From Haloplanus sp. HW8-1 (GTDB lineage Archaea > Halobacteriota > Halobacteria > Halobacteriales > Haloferacaceae), in contig NZ_CP098520.1 in the NCBI RefSeq assembly GCF_023703795.1, positions 62,001 to 126,000 on the forward strand: a DNA stretch of 64,000 bases. The letters run 5' to 3'. Under the pieces are notes generated by a model that saw nothing but the letters and a program-made list of their open reading frames with translations, ran no database searches and was not told where the DNA came from. The position numbers and the translations under genes were made by a program. Below are positions 2,886-54,747 of this stretch, piece by piece; within the stretch, counting starts at the first letter, position 1; each line of letters begins with the position of its first letter.

Positions 2886-2918
2886 GGGCCTCCACCGCGT
2901 GGGGGCCCGACAAACGAG
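2886..2918 (-). promoter_or_regulatory. Hairpin leader element, copy 1
   Basis: A 10-bp stem (arms 2886-2895 and 2899-2908, one mismatch) with a 3-nt loop; on the minus strand it is preceded by CTCGTTTGTC and ends in GGTGGAGG, with the ATG of the 77-residue gene 7 nt on. This is the archetype of the family. Confidence 0.75.
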
Positions 2919-2924
2919 CACGAG

Positions 2925-4424
2925 TTAGTCCGCCGCGTCCTCGTTCTCGTTTTGGGAGTGCTGCACGGGAATCTCGAATATGATGTGACTCTCCGTATCC
3001 GTGGTGAGTTCGTCCACCTCGGTCCAGGTGTACCAGGCTTCTTCGAGGAGATCGGTTCGGTTGGGTGTCTCGGAGATGGCGTAGACCGAGGCGCTAATGC
3101 CTTCGGTGGCGAAGCGAATATCGACGGTGAGTTGGTCGGTGTCGTCAGGTGAGACACCCATCTGACGGGTTTTGCTATCCGGGACATCGTCACTGCCGCT
3201 GTCCTGGTCGTCGAGATCGCCCCGGTAGCGGTGGGGGAGAACGTGGTCGGGGATATCGTTCTGCTCGATCACCGCGTCCTCCCGCTCATCGAGTGTCTCC
3301 GTCAGGTCCGTGAGCTTCTCCTCGGCTGTCTCGATTGCGGTCTTCTTCCGGGCGTAGGTCTCATCCATGAAGTGGTACTTCCGGGTGTCGTCGTAGAAAC
3401 GGATGCCCTCCGACCGCTCCCGTCGCTTGGTCCCCAGTATACCGTAGCCCGCCAGATAGTCAGTCCGATACTCGGCATGGGTGTCACTCACGGTCTGCTC
3501 CCGGAGCCGAAAGCGCCCGATTGTTTCAGGCCAGTCGATATCTTCCTGCTCGGCCTGCTGTTCGGCCCGGTCGCGCTCCTCGGCCCGAACCTCCTTGATG
3601 TGCGGAACGAGTTCGTCGAGCGCGTCCTGGGCGCTCTCGTGGAACTGCCCGCTCCCGTCCCGCCGGGTCCCCACCGGGTCGACGTATTCGATGTCCCACT
3701 CACCGGCGCCGGATGAGACGTCGTCGTCCCGAAGCCACATTTCGGCCAAGTAGCCGTCCGGATGCTCAACGAGGATCGAGGGCTCTTGCTCGGCGTCCTC
3801 GTGCTCATCGACGATTGTCCAGTGTTCGGGAACGTCCAGAGAGTCAACGATCCCCTCCATGACCGTCTGTTCGGTCACACTCTCGACGCCCTCGAGCTCA
3901 TCGACGTCGCCGCCGGCATCCTCGGTTGCCTGGGCATTGACGTCGATGGGGAGACCGTGGCGGGTGATTCCACGGGCCTTTAATTTCGGTATCGTTGTCC
4001 GGATCGATTTGGCCGAAGCGTCCCCGATTCCCGGCCACTCCGATAGGTCCTCGGTGTTATCTTCGACTTTCAGGACGTGACTGGCACCCGAACCCATCTC
4101 TTTGATCGAGTTGGCGACGTTTCCAGTGACTTCGAAGGCTCGAGTGATCGTGGAGGGGGTCCATGAGCCGTTGGCCAGCGCATCGAGCGCACTCTCCCGA
4201 GTTCCACCATCGAGGTATTCCGGGTCCTCGGTCGCCTGGCTGCCGGTGAGATCCGTCTGCCCCTCGATCACCTCGGAAGCGAGGCTGGCCTGCTCGCCGG
4301 GGTTAGCAGGCGGGTCGCACACGTCGTTTCGGTTGTCGACGAACTCGTCACTCCTGTCCACGACCTCTCCAGTGGAGTTCGTCGAATTGTTGCTACTCGC
4401 GTCGGTCGGCGGTGGTGAGGGCAT
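2925..4424 (-). CDS. Unknown protein with helix-hairpin-helix-like segment
   Basis: A 499-residue acidic protein. Residues 1-75 are a low-complexity Ser/Asp/Asn tail. Residues 75-150 resemble a helix-hairpin-helix unit (PGIGDASAKSIRTTIP at about 131-146) closely similar to GISDASAKKITNARP in the DUF6166 protein at 28405-29283. A charged coiled-coil-like stretch (about 275-300) and an Arg/Tyr-rich middle follow. The ATG at 4424 lies 6 nt after the hairpin leader, which is why I reject the upstream in-frame start at 4484. DNA binding is inferred from the HhH; specific role unknown. Confidence 0.7.
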   Translation of the reverse strand: MPSPPPTDASSNNSTNSTGEVVDRSDEFVDNRNDVCDPPANPGEQASLASEVIEGQTDLTGSQATEDPEYLDGGTRESALDALANGSWTPSTITRAFEVTGNVANSIKEMGSGASHVLKVEDNTEDLSEWPGIGDASAKSIRTTIPKLKARGITRHGLPIDVNAQATEDAGGDVDELEGVESVTEQTVMEGIVDSLDVPEHWTIVDEHEDAEQEPSILVEHPDGYLAEMWLRDDDVSSGAGEWDIEYVDPVGTRRDGSGQFHESAQDALDELVPHIKEVRAEERDRAEQQAEQEDIDWPETIGRFRLREQTVSDTHAEYRTDYLAGYGILGTKRRERSEGIRFYDDTRKYHFMDETYARKKTAIETAEEKLTDLTETLDEREDAVIEQNDIPDHVLPHRYRGDLDDQDSGSDDVPDSKTRQMGVSPDDTDQLTVDIRFATEGISASVYAISETPNRTDLLEEAWYTWTEVDELTTDTESHIIFEIPVQHSQNENEDAAD

Positions 4425-4430
4425 TCTGTG

Positions 4431-4461
4431 GGCCTCCGCCGTGCGGGGGCCGGACAAATCG
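4431..4461 (-). promoter_or_regulatory. Hairpin leader element, copy 2
   Basis: A 9-bp stem (4431-4439 with 4443-4451, one mismatch) with a CGT loop, followed on the plus strand by ggacaaatcg. The arm bases differ from copy 1 but pairing is kept. The ATG at 4424 is 6 nt away. Confidence 0.75.
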
Positions 4462-4463
4462 AG

Positions 4464-4510
4464 CCCTACGCAACATACGGACACCGACAGTTCGCACCGT
4501 AACGTAGGAC
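4464..4510 (-). promoter_or_regulatory. Inverted half-site pair TCCTACG / CGTAGGA, site 1
   Basis: CCCTACGCAAC (4464-4474) faces GTAACGTAGGAC (4499-4510); CCTACG-to-CGTAGG distance is 38. It abuts the hairpin leader of the 499-residue gene. Same arrangement as at 13790, 16160, 31340 and 49362; likely a dimeric or paired protein-binding site. Confidence 0.65.
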
Positions 4511-4520
4511 CGGGCGACCG

Positions 4521-5723: not shown

Positions 5724-5750
5724 AGGAAGTGGCCGTCAGGATGGTCAGCT

Positions 5751-5782
5751 GGCGGCGCACGGCTCCGCCGCCGACAAAAACT
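5751..5782 (-). promoter_or_regulatory. Hairpin leader element, copy 3
   Basis: A 7-bp perfect stem (5751-5757 with 5766-5772) and an 8-nt loop, followed by gacaaaaact on the plus strand. It lies 27 nt upstream of the DUF6610 ATG. The G-rich arm is weak here. Confidence 0.65.
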
Positions 5783-5799
5783 GGCGGACGAAACCTCGC

Positions 5800-7200
5800 C
5801 TACGCGGAAGACACAGAAGGGGAGCTCGACGACGAGGATGCTCGTTCGGATGGCTCCACGGATGGGTCACGAAGATGGTCGTAGTCGATCTCGAGGCCAG
5901 CGATTCCCTCGACTGCGGCGGTCGCGACGTTCCCGGTGAGGCAGTTCTCGACAGTCGCGTAGCCGTGGAGCCGAGCCCACTCACAGGCGTCGGCGATGAG
6001 TCCCCGAAGCACGTTCACCGGGTAAGCGAGGGCGTCGGTCTGGACGCTCGCAGTGGACAGCGTGACGGCTTCGGTGTTGTCCCGGGTGTTCTGCTCCCCG
6101 GAGTGGTCTCGAAGGCAGAGTACGGCAACCAGGGAGTCTTCTGGCGTCCGGTAGGCGAAGCACGCGACGAGCGGTGCGGTGTCGTCAGATTCGCCACAGT
6201 CGTACTCATCGAGGAACGCCTGGGCGTCGGTGGTGAGGGTGGTTTCTCGACGAGCCGGGTGCTCCTCGCGGGTCTGGACAAGTTCACCCTGGGCGACCGT
6301 GCGGGGAGAGGCACATGCGGGTCTGACTGGTGTGTTCTGGTCGGTGAGGCGGGCCTGATCGGGACTGACGCGACCGGCGGGCCGTCGGGCCTCGATCGAA
6401 TGACTGGCGAGGACGTATCTGTAGCGACACTTCCGGTACGTTCCACCCCCGGCGCGGCCCTCACGAGAGTGCCATTCACTCCGGTCAGCTATCGTCGTCC
6501 CGAGGAGCTCGAACCCAGCGGCCTGATACATGGTTCCCTCGTTGCCGTTCTGGACACCGGCGTACGTGAGCAGGCGATCGTATCCTTCGAGGCGACTCCA
6601 CGCACAGCAGCGTGAGAGGAGCCACGATCCGGTATTCGCGGGCCGGTCGGGATGGGCAGCGAAGCGATACAGTTCGACCGTCCGACCGTCGGCGTTGTGT
6701 CGCCCCCGCGGGCGTCCGAGGACCGCCATCGCAACCTCTCGGTCCTGGTAGGTGGCAGTGAGTGCGATTCGGAAGGGCGTGGTCACTGGGTCGTGCTGAT
6801 ACGCGACGTCGGGGTGCTTCAGGAAGCCGTTGACACGCTCACGGACTCTGGACCCACGCTCAGCGCGGAGCGATAGGTGCCCCGTTGACGACGCACCACC
6901 GGGCGAGACGAGACGGGGGTCACAGTCGCGGTATGTCCGATAGGCGTGGTAGGCGGCAAGGGAGTCGAATTCCGTCTCGAGTATGACGATCTCCCCGGAG
7001 TCGATCATCGCATCGGTCTCGTCTTGGTTGGGGAGGCGACCGATACTAAGTGGGCCCCCTGGCGGGACGTACCAGTTGAAGGATCCGATGGAGTCGTCCC
7101 CAATGCATCGCCCGATAGCGTTGAGGTAGGGGAACGCGATGATGTCGCCGGCGCGAAGCGGCCGTATCACTCTGGACGAGGGGTGGTGACGAGTACTCAC
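5800..7200 (-). CDS. GNAT-like protein (XF1762-type), long variant
   Basis: A 466-residue protein. Residues 1-85 open with an RPLRAGDIIAFPYLNAIGR-like beta region. Residues about 110-260 look like a GNAT-type N-acetyltransferase of the phage/plasmid XF1762 class: AVLGRPRGRHNADGRTVELY, then GSWLLSRCCAWSRLEGYDRL, LLTYAG and GTMYQAAGFELLG. The C-terminal half (about 300-466) repeats parts of this architecture (DACEWARLHGYATVENCLTG) and may be a second, degenerate GNAT domain; the extreme end is a Ser run. GTG start at 7200, 15 nt after the upstream gene. Substrate unknown. Confidence 0.65.
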   Translation of the reverse strand: MSTRHHPSSRVIRPLRAGDIIAFPYLNAIGRCIGDDSIGSFNWYVPPGGPLSIGRLPNQDETDAMIDSGEIVILETEFDSLAAYHAYRTYRDCDPRLVSPGGASSTGHLSLRAERGSRVRERVNGFLKHPDVAYQHDPVTTPFRIALTATYQDREVAMAVLGRPRGRHNADGRTVELYRFAAHPDRPANTGSWLLSRCCAWSRLEGYDRLLTYAGVQNGNEGTMYQAAGFELLGTTIADRSEWHSREGRAGGGTYRKCRYRYVLASHSIEARRPAGRVSPDQARLTDQNTPVRPACASPRTVAQGELVQTREEHPARRETTLTTDAQAFLDEYDCGESDDTAPLVACFAYRTPEDSLVAVLCLRDHSGEQNTRDNTEAVTLSTASVQTDALAYPVNVLRGLIADACEWARLHGYATVENCLTGNVATAAVEGIAGLEIDYDHLRDPSVEPSERASSSSSSPSVSSA

Positions 7201-7215
7201 GGGAAAGGAGAGGCG

Positions 7216-7512: not shown

Positions 7513-7787
7513 CAGCGGTCTCCCTCTAATTCGTCTTCACTGAGGTGAACCGCCTCGGCGTCGTCTGGAACAAGTTCCTCATAGGTTCGGAATTCCTGGC
7601 AATCAACACAGAAGACTCCGTTCTCACCGATATCGGAGTCGGTGATGGGGCCATTCTTTGTCACTTCGACATCGATATGTCCGTTCGCAAAGCGATGCAC
7701 AGCTCCGAACTGTACTTGATGGATGATCCACGAGAACCGTCCGTTTCCACAATCTGGACAGACAAGCAACTCCGATTCGGAGTTCAT
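7512..7787 (-). CDS. Small zinc-ribbon protein
   Basis: A 91-residue protein with VCPDCGNGRF near the N-terminus and FCVDCQEFRTYEEL about 50 residues later, a CxxC..CxxC zinc ribbon that could bind nucleic acid or protein. The C-terminus is acidic. It is second in a three-gene chain: the 17-codon mini-ORF (7784-7837) overlaps its start by ATGA and the 98-residue gene overlaps its stop by ATGA. Confidence 0.75.
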   Translation of the reverse strand: MNSESELLVCPDCGNGRFSWIIHQVQFGAVHRFANGHIDVEVTKNGPITDSDIGENGVFCVDCQEFRTYEELVPDDAEAVHLSEDELEGDR

Positions 7788-7837: not shown

Positions 7838-7849
7838 CTTGTTTGGACT

Positions 7850-7877
7850 CCTCCACCGTCTCGGGGGCCACAAACAG
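7850..7877 (-). promoter_or_regulatory. Hairpin leader element, copy 4
   Basis: Arms 7850-7854 and 7863-7867; loop and G-rich arm (CCCCGAGACGGTGG on the minus strand) match copy 14 at 31278. Preceded by TGTTTGTGG on the minus strand; the 17-codon mini-ORF starts 13 nt downstream. Confidence 0.65.
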
Positions 7878-8048
7878 GGTAAAATCGATCTCGTATGTGA
7901 AAGGAGTCATAGAATCGTTCACAGCCGATTTACTGCGGTGCAAGCGGTAGAAAATGTTGAATCATATATGATTACAGAAGCCGCTGCAAGATACAGAGGA
8001 CGGGTTCCGCACGCAATCTTGAATACAGGACACAGAGTGAGATGCTAC

Positions 8049-9835: not shown

Positions 9836-9921
9836 AGATTGTAGTTCCTGCAGAACGGGTGATTCGACTGATATGATTCTCACGTCGTGCGGATTAGTGG
9901 GGTTGATGAGGCAGGCGATCC

Positions 9922-9949
9922 CCGCACCGCGTCCGGAGGCGACAAACGA
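9922..9949 (-). promoter_or_regulatory. Hairpin leader element, copy 5 (weak)
   Basis: Minus strand CTCGTTTGTCGCCTCC...GCGGTGCGGGG. The 5' flank is canonical but the stem is poor and the nearest start used is far downstream (9883 or 9835). Possibly degenerate. Confidence 0.4.
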
Positions 9950-10008
9950 GTTGGCCGTGGGCAGGCCGGTCTTGGATTTATATTGATGAGTTTAGCCATG
10001 ACGGACCA

Positions 10009-11280: not shown

Positions 11281-11296
11281 AAATGTGGCGGCTACA
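11281..11296. repeat. 16-bp dispersed motif AAATGTGGCGGCTACA
   Basis: An exact inverted copy of this 16-mer is at 49262-49277. It overlaps the stop codon of the DpdA-like gene. A related AATGTGGC core is the spacer of the palindrome at 60128-60151. Meaning unknown. Confidence 0.4.
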
Positions 11297-12509
11297 GTTC
11301 TTTCGAAGGACATGGCTCTTCTATCTCAGCGCCGTCGGTGTCGTCCAGACAGAACTGCCTGTTCCATAGGTTGAACTGGAGTTGCTCGCAGAATCGACAC
11401 CAGGCGGTATTTTCCTCGTATGGATGCCGATTCGGGTCGATTAGGTTCCCACAGATACACTCAACCAACGGGTCGGCAACGTCAGGACGGCCCGGCTTCC
11501 CGGCAGCGAACGCGCTGAGGGGGACGACTCGCAAGCGCCCGGGTTCGGTTGCTGCGTCTGCCGGCTCATCGGCGTAGGCAGCCGCGATGAGTGCGTCGAC
11601 GGCATCGCCGTAGTCCATGTACGCTTGGAGAGTGCGAATCCAGGCGGGGACGCGGTCGGCCCACTCAGGGTCAGTCACACGAGCGTGAGCGGCCTTCGAC
11701 TGCCACGACGTCGTATCGGCCGAATCGAGTGCCCAGAGGGTCTCGGCGTCATCGAGAACGGTCTTCGAGATCCCGAAGCCGTGGAGCGCATACTTCGAGG
11801 GGATAGCGTCGCGCAACTCCTGAATGATCGCACGAACTTCATTGGTTTTGTTCGGGCGAAGAATTGACCCGATGCCAAGCGTTGGTGAGGCGAGGCCGTG
11901 CTCTTTGAGGTAGTCGAACGACCACAGATACTCTTCGATGTCGTGCCCCTGCAAGACGGCAACGGGTTCGGCGGTGAGACCGACGTCCTCCGCAGTTTCC
12001 AGGCAGTAGACGTGGTCGCGTATTGACCACTCCTGGTGGGTGCGGACATCCCGGTCGGCGTCGCGAAGAAGATCGTGGGCACACGCCCAATCCCGGAGCG
12101 TGTACTTTTCGATTTGATCGTCGTACTCGCTCAAGTAGGCAACATAGTCGTCGATGCTCGTCGGGTAATGGTTGAACTTCTTCTGAACGCTGTACCCGCC
12201 GGAATCGATGAACCAGTTCGGCCCCTCGAAAGGGCGATTGTCCCGGCGAGCGTAGGATATCATCGCGTATCCAGGGTGTGGGATGGCGTTGAGGTCGACA
12301 CCAGCAGCGAGAAGCGCTTCCAGATCGTCGAGATCGAGTGCGTCGGGATTTGTGGCGGCAAGTGCAGCCGTCCCGATGGCTTTTCGCGATGATCCGGACC
12401 CGACCGTGTAGTGGAACTTGAACCGCTCACTCTCCTGTACTCCAGGCGATAGCGATTCACCGTGAGAAGGCGATCGCTGACCGGGACTGGCGGGTGCTTC
12501 TGAGGACAT
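11292..12509 (-). CDS. dpdA-like: DpdA-like / TGT-like transglycosylase (predicted 7-deazaguanine DNA modification)
   Basis: A 405-residue protein of the tRNA-guanine transglycosylase superfamily. The TGT proton-acceptor motif is seen as NWFIDSGGYSVQKKF (Asp near residue 102), followed by RDWACAHDLL, the TIM-barrel motif TLGIGSILRP and YALHGFGISKTVL. It lacks the PUA and tRNA-binding regions of archaeal TgtA and has instead a C-terminal zinc ribbon (CICGNLIDP ... WCRFCEQL). This fits the DpdA group, which exchanges guanine in DNA for a 7-deazaguanine base, or the haloarchaeal DUF7221 proteins. No queuosine/archaeosine biosynthesis genes are in the window, so the precursor would come from host archaeosine synthesis. 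ATG at 12509; a hairpin leader lies just upstream. Confidence 0.7.
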   Translation of the reverse strand: MSSEAPASPGQRSPSHGESLSPGVQESERFKFHYTVGSGSSRKAIGTAALAATNPDALDLDDLEALLAAGVDLNAIPHPGYAMISYARRDNRPFEGPNWFIDSGGYSVQKKFNHYPTSIDDYVAYLSEYDDQIEKYTLRDWACAHDLLRDADRDVRTHQEWSIRDHVYCLETAEDVGLTAEPVAVLQGHDIEEYLWSFDYLKEHGLASPTLGIGSILRPNKTNEVRAIIQELRDAIPSKYALHGFGISKTVLDDAETLWALDSADTTSWQSKAAHARVTDPEWADRVPAWIRTLQAYMDYGDAVDALIAAAYADEPADAATEPGRLRVVPLSAFAAGKPGRPDVADPLVECICGNLIDPNRHPYEENTAWCRFCEQLQFNLWNRQFCLDDTDGAEIEEPCPSKEL

Positions 12510-12519
12510 CGTCTCTGAT

Positions 12520-12548
12520 CTCGCGCACCTTCCAGCGAGCGACAAACG
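12520..12548 (-). promoter_or_regulatory. Hairpin leader element, copy 6
   Basis: Short stem CTCGC/GCGAG (12520-12524 with 12535-12539), flank CGTTTGTCG on the minus strand. TTTGTC lies 37 nt before the DpdA-like ATG, the usual distance. Confidence 0.6.
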
Positions 12549-12631
12549 GAGGCAGTCGGGTGGCTTGGCGACCGAGCAATTGGGGGTTAACGAGATGCAC
12601 AGTTGTCGCGAATTGAATCGGAGTCGAAATC

Positions 12632-13027
12632 TCACCTATTTGGTTCGTCCAGGAGTTCGATGGTGACGGCCGCCTCAAGATGATGCCACAGTAGACCAGA
12701 CCGGAACGTCTCAGTAAGGGTTGTTGCGCAATCAGGGAATTGAGCAGGCTCTTGGACGTCGTGGAGATCGTACACCCGAGCAAGGGTCTGGAGCGTATAG
12801 GCGATGGCGACGAGATCGCTTCCAAAGGTGTCGCGGTCAGTATGGAGGAGATCGTCGAGCGCCGAGTAGCGGGCCTCGAGCAGTTGGTCGGAACTCACTG
12901 TTTCGAGCGAGGTTCCCATCTCATCGAGTTCATCAAGGACGTTGTCGACGAGAGATTCGACGAGCGGTAGCGGTTCGGGGACGGTGTTGGAATAAACGTC
13001 TGAGTCATTCGGAGACTGCCTCCCCAT
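12632..13027 (-). CDS. Hypothetical helical protein
   Basis: A 131-residue, probably all-helical acidic protein (LPLVESLVDNVLDELDEMG, then LVAIAYTLQTLARVYDLHD). Not recognised. ATG at 13027 overlaps the end of the 137-residue gene by 23 nt; the three genes 13750-12632 form one overlapping operon. Confidence 0.65.
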   Translation of the reverse strand: MGRQSPNDSDVYSNTVPEPLPLVESLVDNVLDELDEMGTSLETVSSDQLLEARYSALDDLLHTDRDTFGSDLVAIAYTLQTLARVYDLHDVQEPAQFPDCATTLTETFRSGLLWHHLEAAVTIELLDEPNR

Positions 13028-13759: not shown

Positions 13760-13790
13760 TCCCTCACCGATACGGGGGGAGACAAACTTG
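13760..13790 (-). promoter_or_regulatory. Hairpin leader element, copy 7
   Basis: Arms 13760-13765 and 13775-13780 (one wobble), minus strand AGTTTGTCTCCCCCC ... CGGTGAGGG, ATG 9 nt after the hairpin. The half-site pair at 13790 abuts it. Confidence 0.75.
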
Positions 13791-13828
13791 TCCTACGCTA
13801 CGCTCGCGCCCGTGTTGTAACGTAGGAC
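13790..13828 (-). promoter_or_regulatory. Inverted half-site pair, site 2
   Basis: GTCCTACGCTAC (13790-13801) and GTAACGTAGGAC (13817-13828); CCTACG-to-CGTAGG distance 29. Short-spacing class. Confidence 0.65.
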
Positions 13829-13849: not shown

Positions 13850-14149
13850 TCAAAATGCTCCGATCGAGACCTGTTCGGTGGTGTCGCCACCTTCTTCGGT
13901 GGGTGTATCCGAGCGGTCCATATCTTCGAGCGTTTCGGCACAGATATCGAGCGGGCACGTTCCGTAGTGGCCTTCGTCGACAGCGAGGCGGTCACGTGTT
14001 CGGTGTGGATGGACGAAATTTCCACCGTGCCCCGACGGGCGCTTGCATTTCGTGCCGATGGGAGCGCCACACGACAGGCACTCCACCTCGAGGACGGGGT
14101 CGCGGGGCCACGTTCGATCACAACCGTCACGATTGCACGAGATAGTCAT
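13850..14149 (-). CDS. Small zinc-finger protein
   Basis: A 99-residue protein with CNRDGCDRTW, then CLSCGAPIGTKCKRPSGHGG followed by HPHRTRDRLAV. The CxxCxAxxGxxCxxPSGH...HxxR pattern is one I know from small phage and actinobacterial zinc-finger proteins of unknown role. ATG overlaps the methylase stop as ATGA, so it is coupled to it. Confidence 0.7.
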   Translation of the reverse strand: MTISCNRDGCDRTWPRDPVLEVECLSCGAPIGTKCKRPSGHGGNFVHPHRTRDRLAVDEGHYGTCPLDICAETLEDMDRSDTPTEEGGDTTEQVSIGAF

Positions 14150-15060
14150 GCGAACTCGTCGAAACCGGTCTGGGAGGTCTCACTCGGGTCGAGCGTGACG
14201 TCGAGATTCGATGCGAGTGTTGGTTCTTCGGGCATCAGTTCCGGGTCGACGTCCGGCTCGGGCTCAGTGTCCGACTCCTCTTGTACGGCGCCGGCTTCGG
14301 TGTCGTCGTTCAGGTCGTCGACGTGGGGCGCACCGAAGAATCGGGTGAGGACACGGTCACGCTCGCCGGAGTCGAGTTCTCGTACGGGATGGTCGCCCCG
14401 GACGAGCTGGGCGGTGCTGATGAACCACACGCGGCGGGCCTCAAGTTTCAGGGCGTCACCCAGGAGGACATATCCGGTCATGTCGTTGAGCACGAAGTTG
14501 AGTACGGCCATCTTCGCGCAGAGAGGATCTTTGTCGTATCCGAGGTAAACGGCCGGAGCCTCCGGTGCGAGGTCCCGGAGTCGGCGGGCACTGTCGGTGA
14601 TGAGTCGACCGCTTCCACACCCGGAGATATCACCGATCACGAGCGGGTCTTCGGGCGTTGCCTCACGAAGACTGTCGGCATCAGGGAGATTTATCTGGGC
14701 CATCGCTCGGCTCACCGATCCGGGCGTGAAGTACTGGGCGAAATGCTCGCTGGTGAGACCGTAGTGTTCGTAGACGCCCCCGAGGATGTCTTCTCGCGTT
14801 TCCTCCATCGCGAGGACGAGACCCCCGAGGGCGTTGGCGTGCAGCGTCGCGAGCTCTCGAACCGTCTCCTTGTCGCGACCATCCTTCCGATACCGATCGA
14901 GAGGTTTCTGGTAGGCGTCTTCGTCGCCGGAGAAGCTGGCAACCGCCATGTTGACCCAATCGGAGAAGACCTGGTAGGGAGAGTCGCCCGTTTGCTGACT
15001 GATGTCCTCAAGCGGGTCGGTGACGTGTTCGCTGTGTTCGGGTTCTAGGAGTGTCGCCAT
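14146..15060 (-). CDS. HsdM-like N6-adenine methylase homologue lacking NPPY
   Basis: A 304-residue protein of the type I N6-methylase architecture: helical N-terminus, FAQYFTPGSVSRAM (the HsdM 'FTP' motif), then VIGDISGCGSGRL (motif I, AdoMet loop, with one extra Gly), LGYDKDPLCAKMAVLNFVLN and VLLGDALKL. After this the catalytic motif IV, normally NPPY/NPPF, is not seen: the sequence goes to ARRVWFISTAQL and an acidic disordered tail. It may be an inactive AdoMet-binding subunit or use a variant motif. Stop overlaps the zinc-finger gene; start follows the SWIM gene by 2 nt. Confidence 0.7.
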   Translation of the reverse strand: MATLLEPEHSEHVTDPLEDISQQTGDSPYQVFSDWVNMAVASFSGDEDAYQKPLDRYRKDGRDKETVRELATLHANALGGLVLAMEETREDILGGVYEHYGLTSEHFAQYFTPGSVSRAMAQINLPDADSLREATPEDPLVIGDISGCGSGRLITDSARRLRDLAPEAPAVYLGYDKDPLCAKMAVLNFVLNDMTGYVLLGDALKLEARRVWFISTAQLVRGDHPVRELDSGERDRVLTRFFGAPHVDDLNDDTEAGAVQEESDTEPEPDVDPELMPEEPTLASNLDVTLDPSETSQTGFDEFA

Positions 15061-16117: not shown

Positions 16118-16147
16118 CCCCGCTACCGACGCGGGGGGTGACAAATT
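16118..16147 (-). promoter_or_regulatory. Hairpin leader element, copy 8
   Basis: Six-bp stem CCCCGC/GCGGGG (16118-16123 with 16131-16136); minus strand AATTTGTCACC flank. The SWIM gene ATG is 44 nt away, longer than usual. Confidence 0.6.
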
Positions 16148-16159
16148 GGCCCAGAAAAG

Positions 16160-16198
16160 GTCCTACGTAACGAACCGAGTGTCGTCGTAGCGTAGGAC
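16160..16198 (-). promoter_or_regulatory. Inverted half-site pair, site 3
   Basis: GTCCTACGTAAC (16160-16171) and GTAGCGTAGGAC (16187-16198); distance 29, the same as site 2. Confidence 0.65.
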
Positions 16199-19351: not shown

Positions 19352-19381
19352 GCCCCTCGCCGTCACGGGGGCGCACAAACA
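19352..19381 (-). promoter_or_regulatory. Hairpin leader element, copy 9
   Basis: GCCCC/GGGGC stem (19352-19356 with 19368-19372); minus strand GTTTGTGCGCCCCC ... GGCGAGGGG, then ATG after 4-6 nt. Confidence 0.65.
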
Positions 19382-19533
19382 AGCGCGATGGTTCCTCTAG
19401 GAGGGTGCCATACAACTCTTCACAAAGTATTGTTTCAATCAATAAATGGTGAATCAACTGTTCAGTACTCCTGCGAGTCTTGCACAGAGACGTTGCGAAA
19501 TTTCTTTGCGTCTGCCAACTGATTGCTACTAAT

Positions 19534-21560: not shown

Positions 21561-21591
21561 GCCCCTTCACCTGTCGGGGGGCGACAAAAAT
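21561..21591 (-). promoter_or_regulatory. Hairpin leader element, copy 10
   Basis: GCCCC/GGGGC stem (21561-21565 with 21578-21582); minus strand TTTTTGTCGCCCCCC ... AGGTGAAGGGG. The MoxR ATG is 39 nt away and no mini-ORF with ATG or GTG intervenes. Confidence 0.65.
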
Positions 21592-21706
21592 GGCGTTCCA
21601 CCGTCAGAGAGCGTGCAACGGTCGGTGTCTAGAATCGAATTCCGAACAGGGAAACGAGGTACGGCTCTCGATTATAAAGAGCAAGGCGAATACCCGCGCC
21701 TTTAGG

Positions 21707-24041: not shown

Positions 24042-24629
24042 CTACTCGCCGGTTCGCTCGTCGACATCTGCGTCCAACGCCTCGATATCGATTTCCGTCG
24101 AAATCTCGTTTTCTACATCAAGGAGGATTTCCTGGAGTTCCTGGAGGATTGTTTCGGCTTCGAGGACGGGAATCTCCTGCTCGCGAGCCATAATCCGGGC
24201 AGTCATCTCCGATTTCGTGTAGGCCCGAGCGTATTCGATTGCCGTCGCCAGACCGCTGACTTCGTGGCGTTCGACGTAAAGTTCGATATTGTCGTTTGAG
24301 TCGCGTTGAGCCAGGGCAACGAGAAGCGTCGGGGTGATTTGAAACGTCTCTTCCCCGGTCTGTATGGTCATATCGACCCGACGAGCGCTATATCGGTGCG
24401 GCTGAGAGTCCGTCACGCGCTTGAGGACACCGATTTCCACGAGATGCTTGACATCCTCGTAGACCGTGGTTTGAGAACTCGCAGAACGGCTTGCGAGCTC
24501 CTCTACAGTGGGGGTGTCGAGTTCGAGTACCCGAGCGTACAGACGTGCCAACCGTTCGTTCTGGATCACGTCAGAAACTGCCAGCATCGTATCCAACGGG
24601 TGCGAACCCGAGAGAGCTGATTTGGCCAT
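24042..24629 (-). CDS. Winged-helix regulator, antitoxin-like (DUF7437-like)
   Basis: A 195-residue protein. Residues about 35-90 form a winged helix (TVEELASRSASSQTTVYEDV then KHLVEIGVLKRV). The middle is a helical domain and the C-terminus an acidic coil (LQELQEILLDVENEIS). It is the upstream partner of the PIN gene, as in haloarchaeal wHTH-PIN pairs that I know as DUF7437-type. Probably represses its own promoter and may neutralise the PIN protein. Confidence 0.75.
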   Translation of the reverse strand: MAKSALSGSHPLDTMLAVSDVIQNERLARLYARVLELDTPTVEELASRSASSQTTVYEDVKHLVEIGVLKRVTDSQPHRYSARRVDMTIQTGEETFQITPTLLVALAQRDSNDNIELYVERHEVSGLATAIEYARAYTKSEMTARIMAREQEIPVLEAETILQELQEILLDVENEISTEIDIEALDADVDERTGE

Positions 24630-24869
24630 GTATTTTAATTTCCGCGGAATACATAAAGTTGTATCGGTGGGCTAAGTGGTGCTTCCAACCGTTGATTGGG
24701 GGGTTTGTTATTCCTCAAACCGGAGAAGAGACTCATTATTTGATAGAACCGTGTGTAAGAGATAGAAGATTATGCAGCACGCGCCGATTTGAATCTCTCT
24801 ACTGACCGTATCTTAATATCCTCAAAAGTAAGTTTATTCAACAAGCAAAATAATACTACTTAAGACAAA

Positions 24870-28338: not shown

Positions 28339-28368
28339 TCCCCCCACCGAACAGGGGGGAACAAACAG
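28339..28368 (-). promoter_or_regulatory. Hairpin leader element, copy 11
   Basis: Perfect 7-bp stem TCCCCCC/GGGGGGA (28339-28345 with 28354-28360), minus strand CTGTTTGTTCCC flank and CGGTGGGGGG arm. It serves the 13-codon mini-ORF. Confidence 0.7.
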
Positions 28369-28404
28369 GTGAGAGGGAAGCCGAGTCGGTCAGGCTGCTG
28401 TGGG

Positions 28405-30993: not shown

Positions 30994-31010
30994 GAACTCT
31001 TCTACCTCCC

Positions 31011-31036
31011 CCCATCCCCGTGGGGTGGGCAAAACC
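31011..31036 (-). promoter_or_regulatory. Hairpin leader element, copy 12
   Basis: CCCatCCCC/GGGGtGGG stem with a bulge (31011-31019 with 31022-31029); minus strand GGTTTTGCCCACCCC flank and GGGGGGAGG arm. Start of the PCNA operon. Confidence 0.65.
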
Positions 31037-31059
31037 GAGCATGATGGTCGCGATCTCGG

Positions 31060-31269: not shown

Positions 31270-31277
31270 TTCGAGTT

Positions 31278-31305
31278 CCCCCACCGTCTCGGGGTGCGAC
31301 AAACG
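31278..31305 (-). promoter_or_regulatory. Hairpin leader element, copy 13
   Basis: Minus strand CTCGTTTGTCGCACCCC, loop GAGAC, arm GGTGGGGG, ATG 9-10 nt on; TTTGTC to ATG is 34 nt. Confidence 0.7.
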
Positions 31306-31339
31306 AGCGGGGGTCGCAGGTTCCGCGTCCCGAGTGTTG

Positions 31340-31387
31340 GTCCTACGTAACGATTCGGATGGTTCGATTAGGACTGTTGCGTAGGAT
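31340..31387 (-). promoter_or_regulatory. Inverted half-site pair, site 4
   Basis: GTCCTACGTAAC (31340-31351) and GTTGCGTAGGAT (31376-31387); distance 38. The second half-site overlaps the last codons of tfb. Confidence 0.6.
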
Positions 31388-32555
31388 ATAGGGGTGTCAT
31401 CCGATCCGTCTCGTCGCCTACCACCGTTCCACAGGGTAACGAGAAATGGTCGAGGTTGCCGTCCGGATCGGGAAGTTCTCCGTCATCGGCAAGGCCTTGG
31501 AGCTCCCTCCAGAGCTTGCGAATCGTTGTCGGGGTCGTGTAGCCTTCCTCGGCAAGAGTTTGTTGGGTAAGTCGGAGGTTGCTTTGCCCACTCTCTTTGA
31601 AGGCGTGATAGAGACAGGCAACGGCGACGCCGTTCGGTTGCCGGCCGTTCGCGAGGACACCCACAGCGTTCGATCTGGAGAGCTGGTAGGCACGGCGTTC
31701 GAGACGAGGGGAGGCATCAACGGCACTCGCGAGTCGTGGGATGTAGTCCTGCGGGAGTGGTGGAGGCGTTGCGAGCTCAAGATCTTGATTTAGGCACTTG
31801 TAGTCCTGATTGATTTCTTTAATATCGACACGAGCGACTTCACCAATCTCTTTGAGCGTGCGTGGCAGGCGTTCGAGACGGCAAGCAGCGTACACACAGG
31901 CACTCGCCATACCTTCGACGGAGTTGCCGGCGAGCATCCCTTCTGCGCTAACCTCGCGGTAGAGGTCAGCGGCGCGGTCGTGGATAGAGCCGGAGAGTTC
32001 GAGCGCACTGACGAGGCGAGCGATTTCGCCGAGGCCGAGGCGGAGCGAGCGGTCGCGACTCGAGCCGGTTTTCGATCGACTATCCCACTTACGGAGTCGA
32101 CGGAAACGCCGTTTGGTCTGACGCGACAGCGGGCGGTCGTACCCGTCACTGTTATATCCGATCTCCGTCGGGAGCCCCTTATGATGGAGGCGATGTGTGG
32201 TGGGAGCGCCGCCACGTTCGGGTTCACGGCCGTCCCCAGTATCGACCCAGCGAAGGCGCCGATCGAGGATATCACGGAAGAGTACGAGGCCACATTCCCC
32301 ACAGTAGGTTTCCTCCTCGTCAATGACGAGGTACTCGTCGGTTGCGCACTCAGGACACTGTATTTCATCGGTCGATTCCGAGTCCGTGGCTTTCGACTGC
32401 TCGTCTTCGGAGGCAGTCTCGCTGGAAAATGACTGAGTCTGCTGCTGGTTCTGCCTGAGGCGCGTCGAGACGGGAGTGGGAGACCCCGACCCGGCGGAAG
32501 ACGAGCCGGTACTATGGGTCGTAGTGTCAGTGTTCTCGAGGGCATCTTGAGACAT
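31368..32555 (-). CDS. tfb: Transcription initiation factor TFB
   Basis: A 395-residue TFIIB homologue, which bridges TBP-bound promoters and RNA polymerase. A Ser/Thr/Glu-rich N-terminal tail (1-65) precedes the zinc ribbon (IQCPECATDEYLVIDEEETY, CGECGLVL). The B-finger/linker region and two cyclin repeats follow (GMASACVYAACRLERLPRTL and NGVAVACLYHAFKESGQSNL). Haloarchaea carry many TFBs, and an element-borne copy could favour the element's own promoters. ATG at 32555 follows a hairpin leader. Confidence 0.9.
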   Translation of the reverse strand: MSQDALENTDTTTHSTGSSSAGSGSPTPVSTRLRQNQQQTQSFSSETASEDEQSKATDSESTDEIQCPECATDEYLVIDEEETYCGECGLVLFRDILDRRLRWVDTGDGREPERGGAPTTHRLHHKGLPTEIGYNSDGYDRPLSRQTKRRFRRLRKWDSRSKTGSSRDRSLRLGLGEIARLVSALELSGSIHDRAADLYREVSAEGMLAGNSVEGMASACVYAACRLERLPRTLKEIGEVARVDIKEINQDYKCLNQDLELATPPPLPQDYIPRLASAVDASPRLERRAYQLSRSNAVGVLANGRQPNGVAVACLYHAFKESGQSNLRLTQQTLAEEGYTTPTTIRKLWRELQGLADDGELPDPDGNLDHFSLPCGTVVGDETDRMTPLYPTQQS

Positions 32556-32573: not shown

Positions 32574-32601
32574 CCCCCCAGTTCCTCCGGGGGAAGACAA
32601 A
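32574..32601 (-). promoter_or_regulatory. Hairpin leader element, copy 14
   Basis: CCCCC/GGGGG stem (32574-32578 with 32589-32593); minus strand GTTTGTCTTCCCCC flank and ACTGGGGGG arm. The TFB ATG is 19 nt away. Confidence 0.65.
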
Positions 32602-32675
32602 CTGAAGGCGAGGAATCTGGTCGTAAGCAACCGAAGAGCACGATTCACGGTCCTTCGAGTTCGCTGTGTTCGTGT

Positions 32676-34306: not shown

Positions 34307-34331
34307 CCCTCCACCATTTCAGGGGAGCACA
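34307..34331 (-). promoter_or_regulatory. Hairpin leader element, copy 15
   Basis: CCCT/AGGG core stem (34307-34310 with 34321-34324); minus strand CGTTTGTGCTCCCC flank and GGTGGAGGG arm, ATG 11 nt on. Confidence 0.65.
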
Positions 34332-34584
34332 AACGCGGGGGTCAATAGTTCTGCACACGTCTTGGTTGAACATGAGTAAAACAACGGAACGACTGGTATC
34401 TGGGCAGAGTGTCCCATCTGCGACGATGTCGTGAGTCCCGAGTGAATTCTGAGCAACGACACGACAGCAGAGTCAAGTGTTCTGCACTATTACGCTGCCA
34501 GGAGGCCGACTAATGAAGATTTCTGAAGAACTGGCTCTGTTGAAATCCTCAGAGAGTTACAGGTTGGCCCGGTAGTCTGACCAG

Positions 34585-40077: not shown

Positions 40078-40225
40078 TTTCTGGAAGTGGCGCGATTGCT
40101 GTCGCTGGCTGGAATGGTTCGACTGGGTGAACGAGACTAGATAGAAGATGAGATTCGAGTGGGAGTGCCCAGAGGACGGCTGCTGGAGCAGCACCCAGGA
40201 TGTTTGCTCCTCCTCCGATTCCCCT

Positions 40226-40247
40226 CACCCCCTTGGGGGAGCCAAAA
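40226..40247 (-). promoter_or_regulatory. Hairpin leader element, copy 16 (TTTTGG subclass)
   Basis: Minus strand TTTTGGCTCCCCCAAGGGGG then GTGAGGGG and a second GGAGGAGG. Stem CCCCC/GGGGG (40228-40232, 40235-40239). Upstream of the RPA operon. Confidence 0.65.
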
Positions 40248-40273
40248 CACAGGTATTGGTGGCCGATCGCGAC

Positions 40274-49173: not shown

Positions 49174-49261
49174 ACACGATGCCGAGGAAGGAGCTTGGTG
49201 GGTGTTCATAGTCAGAACTAGCAGTGAAATGCAAGCATAACTCTTCGCGAACCACATTCAA

Positions 49262-49361: not shown

Positions 49362-49410
49362 ATCCTACGTTACAGTCCGAACGTAGATGCCGTTTGGTGT
49401 TGCGTAGGAC
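49362..49410 (-). promoter_or_regulatory. Inverted half-site pair, site 5
   Basis: ATCCTACGTTAC (49362-49373) and GTTGCGTAGGAC (49399-49410); distance 39. About 190 bp upstream of hairpin copy 18. Confidence 0.6.
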
Positions 49411-49811: not shown

Positions 49812-49841
49812 GCCCCTCACCTCCTTCAGGGGGCAAAAACT
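49812..49841 (-). promoter_or_regulatory. Hairpin leader element, copy 19 (orphan)
   Basis: GCCCCT/AGGGGC stem (49812-49817, 49828-49834); minus strand GTTTTTGCCCCC flank and a strong GGAGGTGAGGGG, the best ribosome-binding match of all copies, yet no credible gene follows. Confidence 0.6.
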
Positions 49842-50036
49842 GGAGAAAAGAAGCGCCAGAGGGAACCAGAAATGGGTAGAAGCTAGTCAAGGGTCAAGAG
49901 CCGATGCAACCGCATACCGCTTGAGACCAGCGAACCGCCGTCGTACCGGGGGCACTCGGCAGATTTTCGATGCACAGTGACGGCGTGCCGGAGGGCGACG
50001 TTCACCCTAGCCGGACGGGAATATCCCGCGCCGCCC

Positions 50037-51644: not shown

Positions 51645-51730
51645 GTTTGTCACTCTCTGAGGGGATTTCTGAGAAACGGCTTCGGGACTGGGCACTCGAC
51701 CGTCGCGCCCCACCCCACCCGCTCTCCCTC

Positions 51731-51752
51731 ACCCCCTTTGGGGGCTAATACT
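51731..51752 (-). promoter_or_regulatory. Hairpin leader element, copy 20 (TTTTGG-like subclass)
   Basis: Perfect CCCCC-ttt-GGGGG stem (51732-51744); minus strand GAGTATTAGCCCCCAAAGGG then GGTGAGGGAG. 37 nt before the in-frame GTG of the fused RPA. Confidence 0.7.
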
Positions 51753-51897
51753 CACGGGAGACGCAAGCAGGATAACCGGAAAGCGACGATTGGGACATCC
51801 CGACCGCCGCCGTATGGACTGATTCACTCCGAGGTTGAACCCCGGATCTCGGCGAGAATGAACGCAGTCACCGCTGCGCCCCTCTCTGACTTCCCTC

Positions 51898-51921
51898 ACC
51901 CCTCTTTGGGGACCAAAACTC
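51898..51921 (-). promoter_or_regulatory. Hairpin leader element, copy 21 (orphan)
   Basis: CCCC/GGGG stem (51899-51902, 51908-51911); minus strand GTGAGTTTTGGTCCCCAAAG then AGGGGTGAGGGAAG. No proper gene follows. Confidence 0.6.
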
Positions 51922-52026
51922 ACGCTGCGAGGAGCTGGGGAAACCGAGAGAACAGAGGCACTTTGCCCGTCCGAGCCGTCTAGTCGGAAAGCAGTACGTA
52001 CAGAATCGCGTTCACATCCTCGACGA

Positions 52027-52359
52027 CTAGAAGGTGTAGTCGTCGCGATCGCGAGCTTCGGCACACGCCTCGCAGAGGATGTCGAATGGCGGCCACCCGG
52101 TCAGTCCGTCGGCATCTTCGAGGAGCGTGGTCGGGACCAGGCCCGACATCCCACACCCACCGTCACACGACGCCCAGGAATGGCTGACCGCGGCGAACGT
52201 CTCGCCATGTGGGTCATGGTCGGGCTTCCTGAACTCGGGGCCATCGCCGGTCTTGAACTGAACGCTCACGGGTTCTCGCGGCTCAATTTTGGCTTCGGTC
52301 GCTGATCTGCTGAAATCGCTGTCGATACGCCGCTCATCGGGGTTGATGTTGTCGTACAT
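52027..52359 (-). CDS. Small cysteine-rich protein
   Basis: A 110-residue protein: disordered N-terminus, then SHSWASCDGGCGMSGLVPTT and ILCEACAEARDRDDYTF, a four-Cys zinc site. The ATG at 52359 is 13 nt after the hairpin leader and 33 nt from TATTGG, so the longer frame from 52419 is rejected. Likely a small nucleic-acid- or protein-binding factor. Confidence 0.7.
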   Translation of the reverse strand: MYDNINPDERRIDSDFSRSATEAKIEPREPVSVQFKTGDGPEFRKPDHDPHGETFAAVSHSWASCDGGCGMSGLVPTTLLEDADGLTGWPPFDILCEACAEARDRDDYTF

Positions 52360-52372
52360 CTCACTTCCCTCA

Positions 52373-52394
52373 CCCCCATTTGGGGTCCAATACT
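52373..52394 (-). promoter_or_regulatory. Hairpin leader element, copy 22
   Basis: CCCCA-tt-TGGGG (52374-52385); minus strand GTGAGTATTGGACCCCAAAT then GGGGGTGAGGGAAG, ATG 9 nt after GAGGG. Near-duplicate of copy 21. Confidence 0.75.
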
Positions 52395-52472
52395 CACGCT
52401 GCGAGGAGCGGGGGTACACACGGAACGAACGGCGCGATCAGCCCGCCGGCCGAACAGTTCGGAACAGCGCCG

Positions 52473-54689
52473 TTACCTGAAGAGACGCGAGAGGAAGCCC
52501 TGTTTCTTGCGTCGTTCGCGTTCTTCGGCCTTGATACGTTCGTTCGCCTCTTCGTACTCCTGGAGGACGGCGTCGATTCCTGTGAGTGTCTCTTTTGCCG
52601 TCTTTGCGTCTTCGCGCCGAATCTTCGGACGCATAATCTGCTTGACTCGCTTCACGGGGTCGTCTGGGAGCTCGGCAGCGTCTCTCGAGAGCTCCCCGAG
52701 GTGCTTGAGTTGCGTACGATACTGAGCGCGTTCCTCCATCAGCTCATCCATCGTTTCGAGGTAGACCCTGAGGACAAACCGGAGGCGTTCGTTCTCCTCG
52801 CCCTGCTCGCTGAGTTCGGCGAGTTCCCTTGATTGCCGGTCGAGTTTCCGAGCGAGAATTCGCTGGTCTTCACGAGCGAGACGCATTGCCTGGTCGGTCG
52901 CGGAGTAGCCCCGGATCTCACCGATGGTCCAATCCGCTGGGTACTTCTCGTCATCATTGAGCGTCGGGTCGGTGCGTTCCCATCCCGGCCCGGCGTCGCG
53001 AGCGGACGCTTCCATCATTCGCTGGGTGCTCTCGTCGAGGTCGGAATCGGTGTCCACCCCACGCGGGTCAGCGGGTTCGCGACCATCCGTCGTCGGCGGC
53101 GCGGCCCCTGGCCCGGCCGTTCTCTGCCCTGAGACAGGACTATCATCAGCACTTGTCCCAGCTGTCGTGGAACCTTTGGGTGTGGTCGTCGACGAAGCGG
53201 CGTCATGACTATGGGCCCGGGCGTGGCTGTTCCCCTGTTCCGGTTCCTGCCTAGTTGCGTAGGCGTCAGCGACTGCTGCCGGGTCGCCATCTTCGTCGGG
53301 GTTGACGGGAATGAACTCTTCGTCGTCCTCGAGGTTAGGATGGACATCGGTATTGACGGCGGGGGATCCCCCGTTCGCCCCTTCGCTGTGCAGTGGGTTT
53401 GTCTCGTCCGTAGCGGCGTTGACAGTCTCGGACGGCTCGGAATCGGAGCCAATCTTGAAATCCATCGGCGGGAGATCGTGGTCGTCCGCCCCCGAGGATG
53501 ACGATGAATCCGAGCCGTTGGAATCGGCCTTCGAGAACTTCACACCATCTTTGCTCGGGACTTCGTAGTAATCGTCCACCCGGAGGAGTGCACGGGCGAG
53601 CGTGACATCGCCGTAGGTTGCGCCACTCGCGTAGTGACGTCGCTCCCACTTATCGCGGTGCAGGCCGGATTCCTCGAACAGTGCGTTCATCCGTTTGGGG
53701 TCTTTCGCCGTCCAGAACGCGAGGTTGTGAGCGAGCGCCATATCTGCCTCGGACTGGCTTGGATAATCGGCGTCATGGGACCCCCACATCGAGGCGTCGC
53801 CTTCGTAGAGACGCTGCCTGCGGTCACCTCCCTGAGAGTCGAACATCCGCGTGAGTATCTCTTGATCTGATAGGTCCACACCGGGTCCCGCGAGGTCGGC
53901 GAACGTACTCGGACACTTGGAGGGAAGGTACTTCGTCGCGACCCGCTCGAGGGCCTCCTTGATTGCGGGGTCGTGGATGCTCTTGAAGGCGTCTCCATAA
54001 CGCTCAATGAGCGAACTCGCACTCTGCTGCGCCCGGGCCTCGATGCCGCGGCGACCATCCGCGTCACCTCTGCTTTCTGAATCTTCAACTTCTGTCCCTC
54101 TGGTGAGAGTCGTCTGTCCACCTGGTCTCACGCCCTCCTCGATGAACTCGCGGTGAACGGTCTCTATCTCATCCTGACGCTTCCGGATTTCTGTGGGGGT
54201 TCCCTCGACGTGAGCACCAGTCGTAGCGAAGTACCGTCCGGAGTCATACATCTCAATAGGGCCCTTCCGGTTTCCGCCGGGCGGAAGTTTCCCACTTGCG
54301 AGGATATGCACACCAGTCCCGGAAGCGGAAACCTCCGTATATGAGTCGACCTTGTCGATGATTGTTTGCGTCCATTCCTTGATTTCACCAGTATCAGAAT
54401 CACGACAGTTATCGAGGTCGATACCGACGATGGTGACGTCGTCACTGAAGACGAACCCCAGACCATCGGCGTTCACGCGAGAGTCGTTGAGTGAATCCCA
54501 GGCGGTGTCGAAGTCTCGGCGATGTTCGGGGTTGGTAACGTCGGCATTAATGTCACCACTCGTCCGATATGGTTTAGTCGGAATCTTGGTAGATTTTCCG
54601 TCACGCATACCTTCACGCCAGCAAATCCAATTCCTGATAGTGCGGATTTTGTCCGGGATCCCGTCTTTAGCTACGTCTACTTTTGGCAT
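52473..54689 (-). CDS. PrimPol (NrS-1-type primase-polymerase)
   Basis: A 738-residue protein. N-terminal archaeo-eukaryotic primase-like domain: NWICWREGMRDGKSTKIPTK, LGFVFSDDVTIVGIDLDNCR (catalytic DxD), EVSASGTGVHILASGKLPPG (SxH-type motif) and IEMYDSGRYFATTGAHVEGT. Residues about 290-385 are the helix-bundle domain known from NrS-1 polymerase (YPSQSEADMALAHNLAFWTA, YASGATYGDVTLARALLRVD). The rest is a long acidic linker and a basic coiled coil ending QGFLSRLFR. No helicase domain is present. It would prime and extend DNA at the element's origin or forks. Confidence 0.85.
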   Translation of the reverse strand: MPKVDVAKDGIPDKIRTIRNWICWREGMRDGKSTKIPTKPYRTSGDINADVTNPEHRRDFDTAWDSLNDSRVNADGLGFVFSDDVTIVGIDLDNCRDSDTGEIKEWTQTIIDKVDSYTEVSASGTGVHILASGKLPPGGNRKGPIEMYDSGRYFATTGAHVEGTPTEIRKRQDEIETVHREFIEEGVRPGGQTTLTRGTEVEDSESRGDADGRRGIEARAQQSASSLIERYGDAFKSIHDPAIKEALERVATKYLPSKCPSTFADLAGPGVDLSDQEILTRMFDSQGGDRRQRLYEGDASMWGSHDADYPSQSEADMALAHNLAFWTAKDPKRMNALFEESGLHRDKWERRHYASGATYGDVTLARALLRVDDYYEVPSKDGVKFSKADSNGSDSSSSSGADDHDLPPMDFKIGSDSEPSETVNAATDETNPLHSEGANGGSPAVNTDVHPNLEDDEEFIPVNPDEDGDPAAVADAYATRQEPEQGNSHARAHSHDAASSTTTPKGSTTAGTSADDSPVSGQRTAGPGAAPPTTDGREPADPRGVDTDSDLDESTQRMMEASARDAGPGWERTDPTLNDDEKYPADWTIGEIRGYSATDQAMRLAREDQRILARKLDRQSRELAELSEQGEENERLRFVLRVYLETMDELMEERAQYRTQLKHLGELSRDAAELPDDPVKRVKQIMRPKIRREDAKTAKETLTGIDAVLQEYEEANERIKAEERERRKKQGFLSRLFR

Positions 54690-54717
54690 GGATATTACCT
54701 ATTGTCAGTCCGCCTCG

Positions 54718-54747
54718 TCGCCTCGTTTCGTCGGGCGAGACAAACCG
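54718..54747 (-). promoter_or_regulatory. Hairpin leader element, copy 23
   Basis: TCGCC/GGCGA stem (54718-54722, 54734-54738); minus strand GGTTTGTCTCGCC flank. PrimPol ATG 28 nt away; the stem uses different bases from the C/G-run copies. Confidence 0.6.

Follow-up and report, generated by a model that had tools for sequence, protein, structure and literature searches.

Boxes and palindromes in the window

The window analysed here is a 64,000-nucleotide (nt) stretch of Haloplanus sp. HW8-1 comprising bases 62001–126000 of a 200,002-bp plasmid contig (C3, NZ_CP098520.1) in a three-contig haloarchaeal genome of 3.84 Mb. It codes for TFB, PCNA, Cdc6, replication-factor-A-like proteins and an NrS-1-type polymerase, and also for a MoxR-like AAA ATPase, a VWA protein and DNA-modification-like proteins (DpdA, Mom-like and N6 methylase). 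Across this region, on the minus strand, lie 23 sites which the original prediction had described as copies of one composite hairpin leader. All 23 are present, each with a T-rich box, a first arm that is mostly C-rich, a loop and a matching arm, but rather than a single signal they form two box classes that had been merged. Class A (15 sites) consists of a TTTGT[CGT] box, an arm, a loop (often GAnnCGGTG) and a second arm, while class B (8 sites) reads GTTTTGG, GTATTGG or GTTTTTG followed by CCCC, AA, GGGG and TGAGGG, its box being TTTTG or TATTG. By eye, the class B sites at 49170 and 31034 are weak members. The sites are as follows, with the position of the box T (for class A, the first T of the box) at the end of each line.

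2888..2920, minus strand: class A, arms GGGCC/GGCCC, box T 2914
4432..4464, minus strand: class A, box T 4458
5752..5784, minus strand: class A subtype, arms GGCGGCG/CGCCGCC, box T 5778
7848..7880, minus strand: class A, box T 7874
9920..9952, minus strand: class A, box T 9946
12520..12552, minus strand: class A, arms CTCGC/GCGAG, box T 12546
13760..13792, minus strand: class A, box T 13786
16119..16151, minus strand: class A, box T 16145
19353..19385, minus strand: class A before the VWA gene, box T 19379
21562..21594, minus strand: class A before the AAA ATPase gene, box T 21588
28339..28371, minus strand: class A, box T 28365
31277..31309, minus strand: class A, with ATG 34–35 nt past the box in relatives, box T 31303
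32575..32607, minus strand: class A variant before the plasmid TFB gene, box T 32601
34307..34339, minus strand: class A, box T 34333
54718..54750, minus strand: class A variant, arms TCGCC/GGCGA, box T 54744
31008..31040, minus strand: class B variant upstream of the PCNA gene, box T 31034
40221..40253, minus strand: class B, box T 40247
42450..42482, minus strand: class B before the gene of a 605-aa protein (OB-like region plus TFIIS ribbon), box T 42476
49144..49176, minus strand: weak class B, box T 49170
49813..49845, minus strand: class B, box T 49839
51724..51756, minus strand: class B before a replication-factor-A-like gene, box T 51750
51892..51924, minus strand: class B, box T 51918
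52366..52398, minus strand: class B, box T 52392

The exact class A pattern GTTTGTCN{0,3}CCCCN{4,12}GGTG has four matches in the 3.84-Mb genome, all of them on the window's contig, although one lies a little beyond the window; the reversed pattern, used as a control, has none. We compared the window with stretches of nine tier-1 plasmids, which are close relatives with a TFB 51–99% identical to that of the window (hosts: Halobellus, Halorientalis, Haloplanus, Halorarius, Salinirubellus, Salinigranum, Haloglomus and Haloarcula), with stretches of five more distant tier-2 plasmids (TFB about 37–40% identical), and with one whole plasmid without a tier-1 TFB, from Halarchaeum (NZ_CP054710). The elements recurred in the nine plasmids that carry a related TFB and also in the Halarchaeum plasmid, which has no such TFB. 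On these plasmids TTTGTC is followed by a stem of at least 5 pairs in 35 of 207 non-redundant occurrences, compared with 2–16 (about 1–13%) for 29 other letter orderings, and by a stem of at least 6 pairs in 17 occurrences, compared with at most 6 for any other ordering; the highest stem rate among the rival orderings belongs to TTTTGC, which overlaps class B.

A relaxed motif gave 92 matches in seven annotated loci of six relatives, 76 of them (counted by hand) between annotated genes. The 16 inside genes are mostly weak by eye, as are a few of the intergenic ones, and the two good matches within genes (L027 39343 and L022 17997) fall in annotated open reading frames (ORFs) that may themselves be mis-called. 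The statement that most operons share the element was too strong, since in four relatives the motif stands at 62 of 157 possible transcription-unit heads (18/35, 12/40, 17/40 and 15/42), a count whose regular expression missed some motifs, for example in L028. Among whole genomes, TTTGTCN{1,3}CCCN{4,9}CGGTG has 3–5 matches within about 18–105 kb of the TFB contig in seven of nine TFB-carrier genomes and one match beside the TFB gene in the other two (G351 and G301), and of the other genomes listed G292 has four on one contig over about 950 kb and G154 three, in a scan noisy enough for control patterns to reach four per genome.

Arm pairing and a second, distal palindrome

Arm types include CCCCC/GGGGG, GGCC/GGCC, GGCGGCG/CGCCGCC, CTCGC/GCGAG and ACGCCTC/GAGGCGT, and loop features are kept while the arms change. 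Folding of 28 positionally chosen TTTGT sites in nine clusters (one of which over-merges 15 sites, and with one site, L024 TTTGTTTATCG, that is not a motif) gave a mean of -8.79 kcal/mol with 67% at or below -8, compared with -2.96 kcal/mol and 5.7% for 419 control windows at the same place before starts. Swapping arms between sites weakened the predicted stems in this positional set (own -8.97 vs swapped -6.16 kcal/mol, p 0.0004), in a class A set of 54 sites not selected for pairing (-9.74 vs -8.62, p 0.002) and in class B (-8.14 vs -7.68, p 0.02). The earlier claim that stem bases differ while pairing is kept is supported by arm swapping, although an initial helix-score test of covariation on these 54 sites, in 19 clusters, was not significant (z 1.4). 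Of 198 comparisons between own arms and chimeras within class A ortholog groups, 142 favoured the own arms and 50 the chimera, in a set that includes sites added for their stems, and within class B ortholog groups there was no own-arm effect (4 vs 6 of 10). A larger class A set of 77 unique sites gave z about -6 and is not relied on, because 25 of its sites were added partly for having stems.

We also observed a second palindrome, absent from the original list, upstream of a subset of class A boxes. It has the form CCTACGYWAC-N15/16 or N23–27-GTWRCGTAGG, and its arms keep their sequence, as expected of a protein operator. Allowing one mismatch per arm and spacers of 0–60, we found 39 unique copies, with a spacer of 15–16 in 15 and of 23–27 in 24 and none of 17–22, so that the two spacer classes are about one turn apart; no copy turned up in 100 kb of chromosome and contig C2. 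The window holds these copies, for which no strand is assigned:

4465..4508: distal palindrome CCTACG..CGTAGG, spacer 24, 6 nt upstream of box 4458
13792..13826: distal palindrome, spacer 15, 5 nt upstream of box 13786
16162..16196: distal palindrome, spacer 15, 16 nt upstream of box 16145
31342..31385: distal palindrome, spacer 24, 38 nt upstream of box 31303
49364..49408: distal palindrome, spacer 25, no class A box within about 120 nt

With boxes sought within 60 nt, the distal palindrome stands 5–44 nt before a class A box in 15 clusters (5–6, 16–19, 23, 30, 33, 38–40 or 44 nt), and this distance shifts between orthologous promoters, for example from 38–40 to 17 nt. Helical phasing of palindrome to box is suggestive only (Rayleigh p 0.001–0.11 by assumed period, values that are not independent). 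Among 392 genomes of the order the exact form occurs in ten, namely G000, G260, G370, G231, G352, G307, G384, G351, G301 and, as a single stray copy, G009, while its reversed control occurs in none. A viral origin was considered and dropped, as two exact element patterns have no match in viral contigs and one viral match to the distal palindrome (L077) lacks a box and looks unrelated.

Promoter, leader RNA or folded DNA

In the relatives the class A box peaks at -39 to -34 of annotated starts. The original prediction placed about ten copies 33–38 nt before a start codon, and this position recurs: 28 of the 60 TTTGT[CGT] boxes within 90 nt of 484 annotated starts lie at -40 to -33 and none at -32 to -29, while for canonical TTTAW on the same plasmids 30 of 60 lie at -36 to -25. 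On the five tier-2 plasmids the same kind of palindrome follows TTTA[N]C (in one case TTTAGG), often behind CGAA as judged by eye, and the AAA promoter itself carries TTTATC in the GDY1 plasmid vs TTTGTC in contig C3 and several relatives. The tier-2 arrangement resembles the haloarchaeal proposals of a TFB recognition element (BRE) CGAAA and a TATA box TTWT given in PMC4983044, which also reports 72% of coding transcripts in Haloferax volcanii to be leaderless. We therefore read the box as the core promoter, with a start site that we infer to lie just past the palindrome.

Our best reading is that the elements form a genuine promoter class shared across the plasmid family, with one palindrome in a constant position behind the box and a second palindrome upstream; they are probably, though by no means certainly, promoters rather than leader RNAs, with the box as core promoter and the palindromes as operators. 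Of the two readings first offered, a hairpin leader or a TATA-like box with the palindrome as operator, the latter is thus the better supported. The T-rich box (TTTGTC, TTTTGG or a variant, together with the bases directly before it) would replace the canonical BRE/TATA; upstream of class A and B boxes the bases are GCYCG or GCTCAG-like, and a CGAAA-like BRE was not seen. Transcription would start about 26–31 nt past the box, just beyond the palindrome, which would leave a very short leader or none where ATG lies 32–39 nt from the box, and a longer one at other sites. The first palindrome, set between the box and the start, would most likely serve a dimeric protein as a DNA operator for the control of RNA polymerase loading or melting, and CCTACGYWAC...GTWRCGTAGG would act as a further operator at some of these promoters. 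The sequences show that the elements are present, where they lie, that their arms are complementary and conserved, that the box is exchanged and that an upstream palindrome accompanies some of them; from this we infer start sites, protein binding and the direction of control.

Several observations weigh against this. TTTGTC is poor as a TATA box and does not fit TTWT, although class B TTTT and tier-2 TTTATC do, and class A boxes stand some 3–8 nt farther from ATG than most TTTAW boxes, with a spacing from G-arm to ATG that also fits a Shine-Dalgarno sequence. Variable arms that nevertheless pair are commoner in a folded single strand than in a duplex bound by one dimer, which should show a fixed half-site; the proximal arms (CCCCC, GGCC, GGCGGCG, CTCGC, ACGCCTC) lack one, whereas the distal palindrome has it. 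None of the five tier-2 stretches yielded that distal palindrome, and 7 of its 39 copies have no class A box nearby. Using RNA parameters, the class A sense strand folds slightly better than its complement (-9.36 vs -8.93 kcal/mol; lower in 15 of 23 clusters, higher in 6), while class B folding, and folding with DNA parameters, is about equal on the two strands. By eye, several class B sites (window 42370–42476 and relatives) are followed in the putative leader by a second, unrelated hairpin, for example CGACAGC...GCTGTCG.

An RNA leader, with transcription starting upstream of the box and a hairpin in the 5' untranslated region that a protein or the ribosome reads for translation control, processing or stability, would account for arm complementarity beyond the consensus, for constant loop features on changing arms and for a G-arm close to ATG at roughly half of the start-proximal class A boxes, and because class A RNA folding slightly favours the sense strand we keep it as a rather unlikely alternative. 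If a sense RNA were under selection, G.U intermediates would be expected to exceed C.A, yet the best helices of 104 sites hold 13 C.A, 7 C.T, 2 G.G and no G.T or T.G internal mismatches on the sense strand (at most one per helix, G.T scored as a mismatch; the sites are not independent and some C.T are register artefacts). As C.A on this strand is T.G on the other, an antisense RNA was also considered and set aside, as folding energies do not favour that strand. A leader would further need a promoter upstream of the box, and a TATA-like box at -40 to -22 of the element box was found in one of 36 class A clusters and in none of the 17 class B clusters, as in control bins, by a scan that is itself insensitive (a box for 46 of 323 non-motif starts vs 15 in the control bin), so that this search is supportive and not decisive. 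A small raw rise in class A AT content near -35 was likewise discarded, being non-significant by cluster (permutation p 0.3–0.4, cluster-weighted) with few clusters holding a TATA. The exchange of the box with TTTA[N]C, the absence of any Rfam match at gathering scores within the window, and boxes that begin 11–19 nt past the end of the preceding annotated gene (which operon-internal hairpins would allow) also speak against a leader, and the view of the family as one regulatory RNA is accordingly not favoured. The case also cautions against taking every palindrome with covarying arms ahead of a gene for a leader RNA.

In a narrower version, the G-arm would be a ribosome binding site hidden by the C-arm. 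The proposed spacing does fit class A near ATG, where a box 34–38 nt away places the end of the G-arm about 8–12 nt before the start codon, but this cannot be general because 18 of 21 class B sites (a hand count, with one false match inside a gene dropped) lie 91–286 nt from an annotated start and keep the same kind of G-arm, 3 of the 18 having an unannotated ATG 32–41 nt past the box. Many class A sites are 47–200 nt from the start as well. Conservation of the G-arm is thus largely unrelated to how far away ATG is, and with the leaderless majority reported for H. volcanii we regard sequestration as very improbable. Hardly more probable is a single-stranded or extruded DNA structure in place of a duplex operator, either a hairpin promoter made of DNA or one active on plasmid DNA transferred as a single strand. 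It would fit the equal covariation of the arms on either strand (z -2.33 and -2.30 for the class A set not selected for pairing) and the placing of all 23 elements on one strand of a region whose genes include RPA-like, PCNA, NrS-1-type polymerase and DNA-modification-like ones; however, stems of 4–7 pairs are short for extrusion, the box lies outside the hairpin, and the strand bias follows gene orientation. We know of no archaeal precedent for a DNA hairpin promoter.

Candidate trans factors and known systems

If the elements are promoters, two proteins coded in the window are candidates to act on them:

31368..32555, minus strand: plasmid-encoded TFB (TFIIB), candidate trans factor, its start taken as the ATG at 32555, 46 nt past box 32601
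24042..24629, minus strand: TrmB-like winged-helix protein (DUF7437), candidate regulator, adjoining the AAA gene

Nine genomes have a best match to the window TFB (query 31371–32540) of at least 331 bits, the next genome reaching 234, and all nine hold the distal palindrome. Any gene of this plasmid family, however, would co-occur alike. Tier-1 TFBs form one clade (100/100), and their recognition helix is TTPTTIRKLWRE-like vs [EK][VM]TIRNR in six of eight valid TFB rows of the source genome (rows host_L035 and host_L038 of the alignment and tree being wrong-frame ORFs, not TFBs), with one chromosomal row (host_L042) whose PTTIRTG helix is not far from that of the plasmid TFB. Contig C3 codes for a second TFB at 170893–171423. 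TBP genes of the source genome lie on the chromosome only, with none on the window's plasmid; two tier-2 plasmids have annotated TBP genes near the TFB region (L044 8756–9316 and 36010–36570; L045 40026–40586).

The Halarchaeum plasmid served as a refutation test for a dedicated plasmid-borne TFB. On NZ_CP054710 there are three clear elements of class A, five of class B and three exact copies of the distal palindrome. The one TFB match on this plasmid is 36–41% like tier-1 TFBs, and no Halarchaeum is found among the eight plasmid records with a TFB of at least 60% identity, a search that did not extend to the Halarchaeum chromosome. A dedicated plasmid-borne TFB was therefore rejected as a requirement, and the plasmid TFB is a candidate reader of the promoter class. 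More speculatively, and in our view improbably, a plasmid TFB with an altered recognition helix would play the part of a phage sigma factor, reading a BRE/TATA variant of its own, with two stacked palindromes, one held by complementarity and not by sequence, timing expression of the whole plasmid core. The promoter choice of many haloarchaeal TFBs is largely unsettled, and here a promoter class is separable from the host's by sequence and present in many copies; sister plasmids with variants and a diverged TFB make TFB–promoter specificity directly testable, and likewise the means by which a mobile element in archaea subjects its genes to a common control.

The TrmB-like protein is found at 60% identity or more in 11 plasmid records, five of them tier-1 relatives, and at that level is missing from the records NZ_CP104004, NZ_CP026311 (37%), NZ_CP101168, NZ_CP126164 and NZ_CP054710; it was set aside as a universal regulator, since several of the plasmids that lack it bear elements. 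The region upstream of its own gene has TTTATG without a class A or B element, followed before the ATG by a different palindrome, TTCCGCGGAA (window 24630–24700, minus strand, and L026 23050–23150), which suggests that the gene may be autoregulated.

A literature search at the level of titles and abstract openings found no account of this element, and the closest known case found is the virus-specific GTC promoter element of the Sulfolobus rudiviruses SIRV1 and SIRV2 (Kessler et al. 2004, as told in PMC5569661). It too is an element-wide cis signal, directly downstream of TATA in most promoters of one mobile element, and the class A box also ends in GTC. The SIRV signal, however, is a trinucleotide in a crenarchaeal virus with canonical TATA and BRE, whereas the element here is palindromic and is joined by an upstream palindrome, of which the account in PMC5569661 makes no mention for SIRV. 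In Halobacterium NRC-1, multiple TFB/TBP promoter classes and the non-canonical bop promoter are described (PMC2121645), with TFB genes on a megaplasmid, promoters without canonical TATA/BRE and the idea that TFBs select promoter classes. That description mentions no palindrome at a fixed place, while here one mobile element shares a single promoter form over some 50 kb.

The hairpin promoters of N4 virion RNA polymerase and Frpo of the F plasmid are folded DNA recognised by a viral or bacterial polymerase. They share with the present elements a small hairpin, a kept loop and closeness to the start site (here a predicted one), and differ in being read as folded DNA. Operators of the archaeal repressors LrpA, Mdr1 and NrpR, which are helix-turn-helix proteins, lie near the core promoter and keep fixed half-site sequences, in contrast to the proximal arms of our putative operator, which vary and covary. 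These repressors occlude TBP/TFB or RNA polymerase (PMC5569661).

Among the neighbouring genes, window 40632–42449 codes for the 605-aa protein, which combines an OB/RPA-like region with a C-terminal TFIIS zinc ribbon, and relatives have a similarly sized gene in the corresponding position. The DpdA-like, Mom-like and N6-methylase-like genes at 11292–12635, 5800–7200 and 14146–15060 suggest that the plasmid may modify its own DNA.

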